Assembly (NCBI GenBank): GCA_947627465.1 | Contig: CANQWD010000025.1 | Span: forward strand, 1 to 40,546 | Direction: 5' to 3' | Length of the DNA: 40,546 nt | Source of the DNA: an uncultured Clostridia bacterium | GTDB taxonomy: Bacteria > Bacillota > Clostridia > Oscillospirales > Ruminococcaceae | Shown here: piece by piece, positions 22,432 to 31,828 of the stretch | Layout of the letters: every line of letters begins with the position of its first letter | Position numbering within the stretch: the stretch's first letter is position 1 | Program-made: the position numbers and the translations under genes | The notes under the pieces: generated by a model | Told to the model about the DNA's origin: nothing | The model's input: only the letters and a program-made list of their open reading frames with translations | The model's database searches: none

Positions 22432-22923
22432 TTAAATTTGACCTCTATGCCAAACACAATCGTATTCGCTCCACCAATTATGCGCGTCGATAAGCCATTT
22501 GTCGCCTTGCTTTATCAGCGTGAATTTATCCGCCCGCTCCTGTGAACTTCGCTTGCATCTGAACTCAATGACCGCTCTTTTCGGAGCGCTCATCTCAAAA
22601 GTAACCGTGCAATCCCTGCCGTCTATGCCCTTGAAATCCTCCTCGGCGAACGCATACAGTATCTCGGAATTAAGTGACATTCCATAGGGCTTCGCAAGCA
22701 GCTTTTCGGTGCATTTATCCTTGACTATCCCCCCGTAACGCTCGCGATACTCTGCAAACATATCACGGGTCTCGGAAAACCTTTTCTCCTCGAACAATTT
22801 CTTATCACGCGCGACAAACTCCCGTTCGAGAACGTTTATCTCGCGGAGCATACCAAAAAGAAATTCACAAAGCTCGGCTTGCATATTCTTGAATTTGTCG
22901 GCGGCTTGGTTGATAATTTCCAT
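22432..22923 (-). CDS. NTF2-fold immunity-like protein, paralogue B
   Basis: A 163-residue cytoplasmic protein with no signal peptide. It has a helical N-terminus (MEIINQAADKFKNMQAELCE) with a charged segment to about 65, then an alpha+beta domain ending in KQGDKWLIDAHNWW, the common close of NTF2-like folds. It is a clear paralogue of the gene just upstream, sharing the MEIIN-x-A-x-DKFK start and the DKWL-D ending. Such NTF2-like proteins are known as immunity proteins of polymorphic toxins, but no toxin is nearby. Last gene of the long operon. Confidence 0.7.
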   Translation of the reverse strand: MEIINQAADKFKNMQAELCEFLFGMLREINVLEREFVARDKKLFEEKRFSETRDMFAEYRERYGGIVKDKCTEKLLAKPYGMSLNSEILYAFAEEDFKGIDGRDCTVTFEMSAPKRAVIEFRCKRSSQERADKFTLIKQGDKWLIDAHNWWSEYDCVWHRGQI

Positions 22924-22931
22924 AATTCACC

Positions 22932-23429
22932 TCACCGAATACTGTCGGCGTACCACTTCTCGGGATCGCTTTCAAAACCGTAGTAAACCTCGTCGACAAG
23001 CCACTTGTCGTCCGCGTTTTTCAGCACGAATTTGTGCATTTGAAACGCGCCCTGAGAAAAGTGCGTTTCCACAACGGCTTTTTTAGCGGTTTTCATAATG
23101 AAATTCGCTTTGCACTCGCCATCGATATACGCATACTTCTGCGGGCTTCCATACGAACCGCCATACCGTTTTTTGAGAAGTTTATCGGTGCAGACGGGCT
23201 TCACAATTTCGCCGAGCCGCCGCTCGTACTCGTCCCAAAGCTCGTCCTCGCCCGGACCTACCTGATGTTTCGGGATACCAAGTTCTTCCTTTTTGCGTTT
23301 AAGTTCTTCGCCGCGCTCGAAAATCTCCTTTTCAAGTGTGTTTATCTGCCTTAACAAATCGAACAGAAAACCGCATATCTCGGCTTGCTTATCCTTGAAT
23401 TTGTCGCTTGCCACATTGATTATTTCCAT
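22932..23429 (-). CDS. NTF2-fold immunity-like protein, paralogue A
   Basis: A 165-residue paralogue of the next gene, eight bases away. It opens MEIINVASDKFKDKQAEICG, has a charged coiled stretch (EIFERGEELKRKKEEL, about 34-50) and ends in NADDKWLVDEVYYGFE. The domain order and length equal those of its partner while identity is moderate, so the duplication is not recent. A function as an immunity protein is inferred from fold resemblance and from the CbrC-family neighbour upstream. Confidence 0.7.
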   Translation of the reverse strand: MEIINVASDKFKDKQAEICGFLFDLLRQINTLEKEIFERGEELKRKKEELGIPKHQVGPGEDELWDEYERRLGEIVKPVCTDKLLKKRYGGSYGSPQKYAYIDGECKANFIMKTAKKAVVETHFSQGAFQMHKFVLKNADDKWLVDEVYYGFESDPEKWYADSIR

Positions 23430-23440
23430 AAACCCTCTCC

Positions 23441-23953
23441 CTAGTCGAAATCAAGATAGATGAAATGCTTTCCACAATGCAGACACTTAAACGTCGGGTC
23501 GCCGTTGTTTTGCATATGCTCCTTTGCGAACTCAAACGGAAAGTCGCTGTCGTCGTAGTTTTCCTTGATATCATCCGCAATCCCCTCGCTTTCGACCTCG
23601 TCCCAAGACTTGCAGCCGAGAAACGCGCAGAAATCGCCGCAATGCGTTATCCACATCGGCTCCTGCCATGCGTGAAAAGCAGGCGTGCGGTGGAGCAGTT
23701 CGTCGACCTTTTCGGGGTCGGACACTTCCTCGGCAACATACGGGTCGAGAAACTCGCCGTCAAACTTCTTAGCCGCCGCGCCGCTTGCTATACATTTGGG
23801 ACAGAGAAAATTCACATCAGACGTTGTGTAGAACGGACTTGTATAGTATACGTCCGTCTGCTTGCCGCAGCAGTCGCAGACTACCGTTTTATCGTTGTTG
23901 AACGCGCCCGTTTTCAGCGGGTCGGGGTGGTATTTAAAACTGTATTCGCTCAT
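23441..23953 (-). CDS. CbrC family (UPF0167) zinc-binding protein
   Basis: A 170-residue protein of the CbrC/UPF0167 type, the E. coli member of which is linked to colicin E2 tolerance. It opens with [13 protein letters not shown] and has three Cys pairs that suggest zinc sites: VCDCCG (about 26-29), FLCPKC (about 50-53) and KCLHCG (about 159-162). The conserved [16 protein letters not shown] block sits in the middle. It is cotranscribed with the NTF2-like pair downstream and the PurO-like gene upstream (gaps of 11 and 7 bases). Family members occur as orphan or cognate immunity genes; the exact role here is unknown. Confidence 0.85.
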
Positions 23954-23960
23954 TAAAACC

Positions 23961-29740: not shown

Positions 29741-29754
29741 TTTTACCTCCAAAA

Positions 29755-30180
29755 TCAAAGCTCCAAATCCTCAACCGTCAGCGAACCGTCGACGCATATC
29801 GTAACGGCAATGTCCTCATCATCGAACAAGTCGGGTGCGGAATTTAAATAAAGCGTTAATTCGCAGTTTCCGGTATCTGAAAAATAAACCAACAAAGCCC
29901 AGCACAACTCGATTTTTTTCAAATCATCGGCGGAAAAAACCTTTAAGTTTGCCGCCACGATAGCTTCGTTTATCGCGGAGCGGTTTTCTTCAACAAATTT
30001 CAGCTTTTCCCAAAGCGGACGAATTACGCCGCGAAGATTTATATCCCGTTCTTTGGGCGGGTCGAAAGCAACTTCGTTTTCAAACGCAACGTTTATTTCC
30101 GTCTCATCACCCCACACTTTTTGAACGGTGCGGTAATTAAAAGCACTGTTATCCAATTCCTCAAAGTCCAAAATATTCAT
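29755..30180 (-). CDS. Hypothetical accessory protein with acidic C-terminus
   Basis: A 141-residue soluble protein beginning MNILDFEELDNSAFNY. It has a helical centre (about 50-95) and a final beta segment DIAVTICVDGSLTVEDLEL. The closing part resembles small DUF-type immunity proteins, but I cannot name the family. The ATG at 30180 follows CGGAGAAA. It ends 14 bases before purN. Confidence 0.65.
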   Translation of the reverse strand: MNILDFEELDNSAFNYRTVQKVWGDETEINVAFENEVAFDPPKERDINLRGVIRPLWEKLKFVEENRSAINEAIVAANLKVFSADDLKKIELCWALLVYFSDTGNCELTLYLNSAPDLFDDEDIAVTICVDGSLTVEDLEL

Positions 30181-30239
30181 AGAGTTTCTCCGTTTATACG
30201 GCAAAGCCGTACAAAATCTAAGATAATGTACGGCAGCCT

Positions 30240-30794
30240 TTATTTCAATTGAATTTCAAGGCCCGTGAAGCTCGTTTCATCGCGGGTCGCGTCGTCTTGG
30301 TCAAAATCGGTGTATTCGGCGGTGATGAGGTAGTTCCCCACGGTAAACTCGCGGAAAACATCTTTATCCTCTCCCGCCAAAGCTACGGGAAGCCACGGCT
30401 GTCCGTTTATCGTAATCGTTCCCTTAAACTTCGCTATTGTACCGATTTTTTTGGTTTCGTAATCGGCTTTGTTGAACTGTATTCCGAACGTGTTTACAAC
30501 GCTCCCGTTGTAAGTGTACGCTTTCAATCCCAAGCCGTCCCAAAAATAATTGGTGCGGTCGGTGATCTGTTCGCCCGCGATCTTCTCGTTTATCTCACGC
30601 TCGCTTTCCTTTGTCTTGAAATGCTTCGCGCGCGGCTCTCCGAAAATTCTCGTCAGCGCGTCAATATGTATGGGAACTTCCAGCTTTTGCCCGTTTATTA
30701 TAAAGCAGTCGCCGCAAATATCGATAGTATAGCTTTTGGTAGCTTCAGACGCCTGCTCATACTTTTTTCCGAAAAACTTGTCAAATAATCCCAT
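30240..30794 (-). CDS. Hypothetical accessory protein, possibly DUF7738-like
   Basis: A 184-residue protein without a signal peptide. Its first 20 residues ([20 protein letters not shown]) are amphipathic and may touch the membrane. The centre has CFIINGQKLEVPIHIDALTR (about 31-50), IFGEPR and YFWDGLGLKAYTY, a pattern I associate with a DUF of small Gram-negative and Gram-positive accessory proteins; this call is tentative. It begins inside the purM stop (TAATG), so it is translated in step with purM. Confidence 0.68.
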   Translation of the reverse strand: MGLFDKFFGKKYEQASEATKSYTIDICGDCFIINGQKLEVPIHIDALTRIFGEPRAKHFKTKESEREINEKIAGEQITDRTNYFWDGLGLKAYTYNGSVVNTFGIQFNKADYETKKIGTIAKFKGTITINGQPWLPVALAGEDKDVFREFTVGNYLITAEYTDFDQDDATRDETSFTGLEIQLK

Positions 30795-31828
30795 TACTCA
30801 AATACTACTCCCTCATCGCCGCTTATCGTTTCGCCGATAACAAATGCCCGTTCTCCGTTTTCTTCAAGGATTTTCACGGTCTTATCCGCGTCCGCTTTAT
30901 CCACGCAGACAGCCATTCCCACGCCCATATTGAACGTGTTGTACATATCGTGCTCGGGGATATTGCCCTCTTTTTGAAGCAAGTCGAAAATCGGCGGAAT
31001 GTTCCACGAGCCTTTTTTGATCTTCGCGGAAACGCCGTCGGGCAGCATTCTCGGGATATTCTCGTAAAATCCGCCGCCCGTGATGTGCGAAATTCCCTTA
31101 ACGTTAACTTTGGAGATCAGGTCGAGCACGGGTTTCACGTAAATTCTTGTGGGAGTAAGAAGCGCGTCGCCGAGCGACATTCCAAGCTCTGGCACAAGCG
31201 TGCGAAGCTTTTGCTCGTTGATGTTGAACACGTGGCGAACCAGCGAAAATCCGTTGGAGTGAACTCCGCTGGAGGCGATTCCGATAATCGCGTCTCCCGC
31301 TTTTATAGAGGTATTGTCGAGTATCTTCGACTTGTCCACGATACCGGTTGAGTAACCCGCGATATCGTATTCGTCTTCAGCCATCATTCCGGGGTGTTCG
31401 GCGGTCTCGCCGCCCACGAGAGCGCAGCCCGCCTGAACGCAGCCGTCCGCCACGCCCTTAACGATAGCCGCGACTTTTTCGGGAACGTTTTTTCCTATCG
31501 CAATATAATCAAGGAAATAGAGCGGTTTCGCGCCGCAGCAGATGATGTCGTTTACGCACATCGCCACCGCGTCAATTCCAATCGTGTCGTGTTTATTCAA
31601 TACCATCGCTATCTTGAGCTTTGTGCCCACGCCATCCGTGCCGCTTACAAGCACCGGCTCTTTCATTCCGCTCAAATCAAGCTGAAACAAACCGCCGAAG
31701 CCGCCTATTCCCGAAATACAGCCGGGGATTTTAGTGCGCTCCACGTCCGCTTTCATAAGACGAACGCCCTCGTAACCCGCCGTTACGTCCACGCCCGCTG
31801 CTTTATAACTCTCACTGTAACTTTTCAT
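30794..31828 (-). CDS. purM: Phosphoribosylformylglycinamidine cyclo-ligase
   Basis: ATP-dependent ring closure of FGAM to AIR, step five of purine synthesis. The 344-residue protein has [16 protein letters not shown] near the start, GVGTKLKIA, the conserved [14 protein letters not shown] block, [14 protein letters not shown] and [15 protein letters not shown]. Of two adjacent ATGs, the one at 31828 has the better distance (five bases) to GGGGG. The stop overlaps the start of the next, unrelated gene in TAATG. Confidence 0.97.

Follow-up and report, generated by a model that had tools for sequence, protein, structure and literature searches.

Why does a purine biosynthesis operon carry ten accessory genes in the gaps between its own, and what might these genes encode? 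The question is raised by a contig of an uncultured Clostridia bacterium of the Ruminococcaceae (CANQWD010000025.1, assembly GCA_947627465.1), whose 40,546 nt are referred to here as the window (genome G000, contig G000:C25, locus label WIN; L and G denote loci and genomes, respectively). In it, purM, purN, a purO-like gene and purH alternate with genes for small proteins of mixed families, a methyltransferase and two leucine-rich repeat (LRR) lipoproteins, which a preliminary description had put forward as a candidate for an undescribed system using a metabolic operon as a platform for orphan immunity genes. Comparing the locus with its relatives, we consider it probable that the stretch from purM to purH represents a heterogeneous array of orphan immunity genes which, together with passenger genes, occupies three gaps of a housekeeping operon.

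Layout of the operon

All ten accessory genes lie on the minus strand within the purM-purN, purN-purO and purO-purH gaps, the order being purE-purC-purF-purM-DUF7738-X149-purN-DUF6985-X210-methyltransferase-LRR1-LRR2-purO-CbrC-NTF2a-NTF2b-purH (purE assigned by homology only). The upstream anchor purM (30794..31828; AIRS and AIRS_C domains) is followed by genes for a DUF7738 protein of 184 amino acids (aa) (30240..30794; PF24880, 1.9e-18) and for X149 (29755..30180; 141 aa, assigned to no family, no Pfam match and one clear blastp relative, 47% identical, in L032). After purN (29108..29740; Formyl_trans_N, 1.2e-50), which belongs to a minority lineage, come a DUF6985 gene (28608..29105; PF22481, 4.2e-24, 86.2 bits against a cut-off of 24.5), the divergent family member X210 (27941..28573, with the start uncertain between 28573 and 28411; in a blast cluster with DUF6985 genes), a class I S-adenosylmethionine-dependent methyltransferase (27193..27933; Methyltransf_11, 1.9e-13) and two LRR_5 lipoproteins (25967..27190 and 24711..25967; PF13306, 4.1e-43 and 1.2e-70, both lipoboxes read in the sequence). 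The middle anchor, a purO-like IMP cyclohydrolase gene (23961..24671; PF07826 (IMP_cyclohyd), 4.1e-69), precedes a CbrC-family (UPF0167) gene (23441..23953; PF03691, 3.7e-53, 180.3 bits against a cut-off of 25) and two NTF2-like paralogues that are 42% identical (NTF2a, 22932..23429; NTF2b, 22432..22923). The preliminary description had ended the operon at 22432; it continues past this point, as the downstream anchor, a purH-type AICAR formyltransferase gene (22085-20907, minus strand; AICARFT_IMPCHas, 1.5e-55), comes 346 bases after NTF2b.

The 12 junctions from purM to NTF2b measure -1 (TAATG), 59, 14, 2, 34, 7, 2, -1 (TAATG), 39, 7, 11 and 8 bases, i.e. two one-base TAATG overlaps, seven gaps of 2-14 bases and three of 34, 39 and 59 bases (that of 34 rests on the uncertain start of X210), which bears out the earlier account of tightly joined accessory genes alternating with purN and the purO-like gene after purM. 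A GGAGG- or GAGG-like site stands just 5' of most starts, and none is present at the TTG start used for X210. Across the 35 loci of the genus (defined below) 153 of 228 cargo junctions measure at most 20 bases (median cargo junction 12 bases), and a single one of the 194 cargo open reading frames (ORFs) of all loci lies on the opposite strand; short junctions and near-uniform strand together rule out a chance arrangement.

Gap occupancy and fidelity across relatives

The 80 relatives compared are metagenome-assembled genomes, most of them under the labels Oscillospiraceae, Ruminiclostridium or (uncultured) Clostridia and many bearing sample names that refer to herbivores. The genus set comprises 35 loci (one each from 34 genomes of G000-G036, plus L032 with 97% PurO identity); G008, G029 and G031 have no purO match and stand outside it. 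The gene caller had this genus as its training set and does not work on loci whose composition differs (e.g. L051, L053, L062), so that counts for non-genus loci include only intervals with both flanking pur genes called (near-identical loci, e.g. L057/L060, among them). The order of the pur genes is kept across the 35 genus loci, in which extra genes occupy 26 of 29 purM-purN, 26 of 32 purN-purO and 16 of 30 purO-purH intervals; elsewhere they are found in purE-purC (4/18), purC-purF (0/21) and purF-purM (1/26, one gene). The same three gaps are filled in 7 of 50, 7 of 51 and 4 of 59 intervals of other lineages, with median gaps of 16-23 bases, and since these lineages mostly carry no cargo, the compact operon is probably ancestral, with the three gaps arising mainly in this genus. 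Cargo does occur in the same gaps beyond it (DUF7738 in L102, L106, L107 and L110; DUF6985, methyltransferase, NTF2 and CbrC in L091), so that the arrangement either predates the genus or crossed its border. Cargo content differs between close relatives (species, not strains, being compared): comparison of the purM-purN-purO interval, as proposed in the preliminary description, shows the cargo varying while the purine genes stay.

One could suppose that the small proteins act as regulators or helpers of purine or one-carbon enzymes, in line with their long residence in the pur operon, with related genes near upp, nucleoside phosphorylase and pyrG in congeners, and with a formate/nitrite-transporter relative in the purM-purN gap of L084. 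Yet other lineages run the same operon mostly without cargo, each main cargo family is absent from some congeneric intervals, and DUF6985 genes occur next to nuclease toxins at sites where no pur genes were seen; we hold such a function to be highly improbable.

Blast clustering of the 194 cargo ORFs gave 27 clusters, in which five main families account for 151 ORFs and each keeps to a single gap: DUF7738 (50/50 operon copies) to purM-purN, DUF6985/X210 (32/32) and the methyltransferase (24/24) to purN-purO, and NTF2-like (29/29) and CbrC (16/16) to purO-purH. Copy number varies, DUF7738 reaching six in the purM-purN gap of congeners. A free insertion hotspot is rejected on these grounds, and the one-gap fidelity speaks for copies being duplicated locally, lost and homologously exchanged rather than inserted at random.

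The gaps could also reflect a general accretion, whereby a well-expressed operon gathers promoterless genes of mixed function that are expressed and tolerated, the immunity-like ones being merely common. Such a process would accommodate the flavodoxin and zeta-toxin-like kinase genes found in gaps of congeners, the GDSL lipase, DJ-1 protein and formate/nitrite transporter of other lineages, the varied extras of purE-purC in congeners (HTH-methyltransferase, TIM barrel, dUTPase_2/MazG-like and HAD proteins, in the four occupied intervals), and the cargo for which we found no immunity evidence (DUF7738, X149, methyltransferase and LRR proteins). It sits poorly with the dominance of five families that each hold one gap, with the near-complete sparing of purC-purF and purF-purM in the genus, and with the convergence on toxin contexts of Imm-NTF2, Tdi1_C, DUF7716 and DUF6985, plus Imm51 and DUF6572 in other operons (see below). 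We regard accretion as a possible but rather unlikely explanation, and continue with the reading of the segment as an orphan-immunity array.

Immunity-type families among the cargo

The evidence for immunity is good for DUF6985. Within the DUF6985/X210 alignment (profile built from 15 of 32 members) seven of the 15 match PF22481, while the window X210 alone has no Pfam match. Outside the genus we obtained 14 DUF6985 matches (9 among 245 genomes and 5 among 388 genomes), three of which, from two genomes, directly follow WHH/colicin-type deoxyribonuclease (DNase) toxins: two genes of G145 come after TssD(Hcp)-fused colicin-DNase/WHH proteins, and one of G748 after a WHH ORF located downstream of an RHS ORF. 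A further gene (G224) has in its vicinity an LHH nuclease, an EndoU protein and a SUKH-like protein (recognized by eye), and another (G173) belongs to an array that includes Imm1. In the congener G018 three weak matches (24.6, 22.2 and 21.8 bits, one reaching the cut-off of 24.5) lie among proteins of ~520-560 aa that share an N-terminus and differ in their C-termini, an LXG-like architecture; relatives of DUF6572 (35% identical, one compared) also stand between these toxin-like genes. The G018 proteins stay under the cut-off of every Pfam toxin model and possibly constitute an undescribed LXG-like family. The window DUF6985 protein is likely to be an immunity protein against WHH/colicin-type DNases, whereby an uncharacterized Pfam family gains a concrete predicted job.

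As a separate observation, the tandem toxin-like genes of G018, interspersed with DUF6985-like and DUF6572 genes, span positions 2333-11311 of L209 (G018:C5).

For NTF2-like and CbrC proteins the immunity evidence is fair. Imm-NTF2 was matched at E<=1 by 11 of the 17 NTF2-like members scanned (profile built from 17 of 29; best 1.4e-5), and across the phylum the family was met in 2 further genomes of 388 (one strong match), where no toxin was recognized nearby by eye. The toxin reported for Imm-NTF2 is Tox-NucA (PMC3482391). The window CbrC reaches 168.6 bits against NCBIfam CbrC, under its 300-bit equivalog cut-off, and CbrC genes occur in 8 of 23 congeneric genomes, seven of the copies belonging to the pur operon and that of G008 to a run which includes upp. 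Colicin E2 is a DNase. Protection of Escherichia coli from it by CbrC has been reported (PMC3599342).

Two more immunity-type families fill the purO-purH gap of congeners, with matches over cut-off to T6SS_Tdi1_C (6.1e-10; Tdi1-like) and DUF7716 (5.1e-17; such genes occur in two congeners, one scanned). The toxin reported for Tdi1 is Tde1 (PMC10470768), and DUF7716 has been predicted to provide immunity to a ColE7-like effector, the HNH nuclease of S. Tennessee SPI-6 (PMC13224477). Unrelated families that are candidates for immunity within the window comprise DUF6985 (by context), NTF2 (by family-level matches) and CbrC (by literature), the over-cut-off matches to Tdi1_C and DUF7716 being confined to congeners. 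The reported or neighboring toxins of all five are nucleases; as nucleases are common among polymorphic toxins, this theme may partly be chance.

Immunity-type genes also occur in other operons of single congeners. A run of G008 (L206, G008:C170, 4131-6620) holds CbrC, Imm51 (6e-23) and a DUF6985-like gene amid nucleoside phosphorylase, tsaB, rpiB and upp (phosphorylase, upp and Imm51 identified by Pfam, the others by eye), and in G018 DUF6572 and DUF6985 genes come after pyrG. Both sites were met by following family matches, with no control over other operons; with these two examples the idea of the operon as a platform appears plausible.

No toxin gene is present among the window cargo. LXG was dropped as a source toxin, as none of 37 genomes held a match over cut-off (two were sub-threshold). 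The G018-type toxin was found, among 61 genomes, in G018 and as one marginal fragment in G014 (strong in 1 of 37 congeneric genomes), and WHH in one of the 61 (a short ORF in G005 beside a SUKH-like gene, by eye). These results bear on whether the cargo is kept to neutralize a toxin whose gene lies at another site of its own genome, for which G018, with both toxin-like genes that have DUF6985-like neighbors and operon-embedded DUF6985 genes, could be quoted. Against such split cognate pairs stand the rarity of the G018 type and the host genome G000 itself, which has no LXG, WHH or G018-type toxin (other toxin families were not searched genome-wide), and we deem them very unlikely. The earlier notion of immunity genes kept away from a toxin holds to this extent, and needs amending in that the cargo is not freely shuffled, each main family having its gap.

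Divergence, exchange and purN replacement

Median amino-acid identity between congeneric pairs is 41-65% for the five main cargo families vs 85-89% for purF/M/O/H. The ratio of nonsynonymous to synonymous divergence (dN/dS) between the window and L032 is 0.18-0.26 for cargo and 0.03-0.05 for purM, purO and purH; over seven pairs (in some of which synonymous sites are near saturation) it ranges from 0.06 to 0.38 for cargo, 0.005 to 0.11 for purC/F/M/O/H and 0.07 to 0.30 for purN. By these measures the cargo genes are constrained and fast-evolving rather than decaying. Recent exchange, i.e. synonymous divergence far below that of core genes, was flagged in four of 1400 comparisons (928 of cargo, 472 of purN): DUF7738 of L044/L124 (synonymous divergence, pS, 0.02 vs 0.25 in the core), DUF7738 and NTF2 of L040/L119, and CbrC of L040/L077. 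The flagged pairs point to between-species transfer, rare in this sample.

The purine genes were not wholly spared. The window PurN is 94-95% identical to those of L033/L037 but 73% to those of L032/L112/L140; the PurN proteins of WIN, L033, L037 and L045 are mutually 85-95% identical and 66-74% to the other 16 loci of the matrix, and they group in the tree with the L047/L123/L132 clade. L045 and L046 differ in PurN despite 96-98% identity in PurM, PurO and PurH. Approximately unbiased (AU) tests, run on 18 genomes with all four genes and on groups named after the identities had been seen, rejected L045+L046 as one clade for PurN (p-AU 1.4e-55) and WIN+L037+L045 as one clade for PurM+PurO+PurH (p-AU 1.1e-137). 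From these trees and identities we conclude that purN was replaced within a conserved operon, which would fit homologous recombination across the segment.

Two side observations concern other purine genes. In L044-L046, L052, L077 and other relatives two adjacent purF-like genes (~30% and 84% identical to the window PurF) lie between purC and purM, where the window has one purF and several relatives only the ~30% type; the double purF is likely an enzyme replacement caught midway. In L112 (14760-15467) a purH fragment at the contig end is 66% identical to the window purH although PurO is at 96%, indicating a replacement or a chimeric contig.

The purH junction and flanking features

The 346-base gap between NTF2b and purH contains a counter-oriented ORF of 50 aa (22217..22369, plus strand), 80-86% identical to ORFs that precede purH in relatives (five non-duplicate loci in all: the window, L032, L033, L035 and L122), and a 12/12 sigma-70-like promoter match (22169-22197). 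A hairpin (22385-22412) carries its T-run on the plus strand and gives no reason to end the pur transcript before purH; minus-strand termination at this point was rejected accordingly. The hairpin stem, beside the 50-aa ORF, shows among relatives an A-T to G-C change on both sides (by eye). A riboswitch idea was dropped, as an Rfam scan of 18000-38000 returned no family at gathering score. The label 'constitutive', which the preliminary description gave to the operon, finds no support.

Just downstream of purH (19068-20676, minus strand) lie a Sigma-70-family gene of the extracytoplasmic function type and a gene for a 376-aa protein with an apparent membrane segment, possibly an anti-sigma factor. 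Beside the operon, at 36357-37010 (plus strand), stands a formate/nitrite transporter family gene, of which a 43% identical relative lies within purM-purN of L084 (8749-9366), with the same cluster in L086 and L105; it is perhaps tied to formate use in purine synthesis.

Interpretation

We propose that the small genes, with their own ribosome-binding sites and little room for promoters or recombination sites, would ride the purine transcript, and that the DUF6985, NTF2-like and CbrC products, to which congeners add Tdi1-like and DUF7716 ones, would act by binding and blocking the DNase toxins injected by rivals. Changes in gene content may arise as copies are duplicated in tandem or lost, and as congeners undergo homologous recombination via the conserved flanking purine genes, a process that at times would also replace purN, while the methyltransferase, the LRR lipoproteins and others could be passengers sharing the gaps.

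Several observations weigh against this interpretation. Recent exchange finds support in only the four comparisons named above. A promoter scan gave 32 matches on both strands vs 16.3 in shuffles, and those on the cargo strand within the segment (e.g. 10/12 at 30724 and 28486) mean that separate cargo promoters may exist. The window NTF2a and NTF2b score 15.6 and 13.3 bits (E 0.019 and 0.095), under the Imm-NTF2 (PF15655) cut-off of 25, and the NTF2 alignment has no PDB relative below E 0.05 (nor have the DUF6985 and DUF7738 alignments or CbrC). These bacteria presumably lack an outer membrane, through which the effect of E. coli CbrC on colicin E2 may act (as proposed in PMC3599342). In plasmid contexts (7 of 27 records viewed) one of six annotated CbrC genes stands beside an immunity-type gene (SMI1/KNR4), and no plasmid relatives of DUF6985 or DUF7738 were found at E 0.01. 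A toxin or immunity gene lies beside only 5 of the 14 outside-genus DUF6985 matches, no toxin having been seen by eye at nine (whose neighbors were not all scanned). DUF7738 (profile built from 23 of 50 members), the commonest cargo, has neither toxin neighbor nor immunity match; outside the genus and away from pur operons we met it only within proteins of ~800 aa, over cut-off in 2 of 390 other genomes of the class sample, and the one scanned also has DUF6892. For X149, the methyltransferase and the LRR lipoproteins (present in 2 loci) there is no immunity evidence either.

The profile searches against immunity families suggested in the preliminary description consequently give a divided answer (several families have immunity matches or toxin neighbors, while DUF7738, X149, the methyltransferase and the LRR lipoproteins have none), and its immunity idea seems right for part of the cargo. 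Anti-phage defense was discarded as a function, since PADLOC gave only a methyltransferase-mad2 match and an 18-bit match of NTF2b to NsnC.

A broader, speculative reading, which we consider doubtful, would make the nucleotide operons (pur throughout the genus; the tsaB-rpiB-upp and pyrG runs in single congeners) a distributed orphan-immunity archive refreshed by recombination and directed mainly against DNases, in which DNase immunity would be co-expressed with nucleotide supply for repair, and essential genes would serve as homology anchors instead of a recombinase. If housekeeping operons can keep orphan immunity arrays in fixed gaps and exchange them by homologous recombination, defense genes have gone unnoticed within core operons, and an entire genus of Clostridia would offer a ready-made set of bacteria in which to ask what toxins influence gut communities.

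Comparison with known systems

The claim of an undescribed kind of system fails, because polyimmunity loci and orphan immunity arrays have already been described; those we found in the literature occupy separate islands, in many cases next to recombinases. Heterogeneous polyimmunity loci are tandem, probably co-transcribed, structurally unrelated immunity genes without a toxin (Zhang et al. 2012, PMC3482391). The window shares with them tandem, co-oriented small genes (here presumably on one transcript), the missing toxin gene and the varying content, which in polyimmunity loci differs even between strains and includes LRR and NTF2 types (PMC3482391). CbrC and UPF0167 were not met in the portions of that text at hand, and DUF6985 and DUF7738 are later names, neither found in the literature searched. 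Unlike polyimmunity loci, the genes here occupy three purine-operon gaps, split by purN and purO and with one family per gap, and no recombinase was seen.

The arrays termed rAID likewise consist of short, co-oriented, sequence-divergent orphan immunity genes in gut bacteria, but their definition includes a tyrosine recombinase and motifs conserved between the genes (PMC12247911). No tyrosine recombinase was present in the window operon or in one representative each of 18 further cargo clusters (2 of 27 clusters left out), and the 12-base median junction leaves little room for rAID-type sites. CbrC of E. coli is alike in family (UPF0167) and in its reported colicin E2 protection; its gene belongs to the CreBC regulon, and the outer-membrane effect proposed there is not expected here (PMC3599342). 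The S. Tennessee SPI-6 effector partner resembles the DUF7716-type genes in purO-purH of two congeners (PMC13224477), with the difference that the window has no DUF7716 and that no partner toxin occurs here. For orphan immunity arrays in purine or other housekeeping operons we found no description in the literature searched. Taken together, the class of array is a known one, and what seems new is that it lodges in purine and other housekeeping operons.

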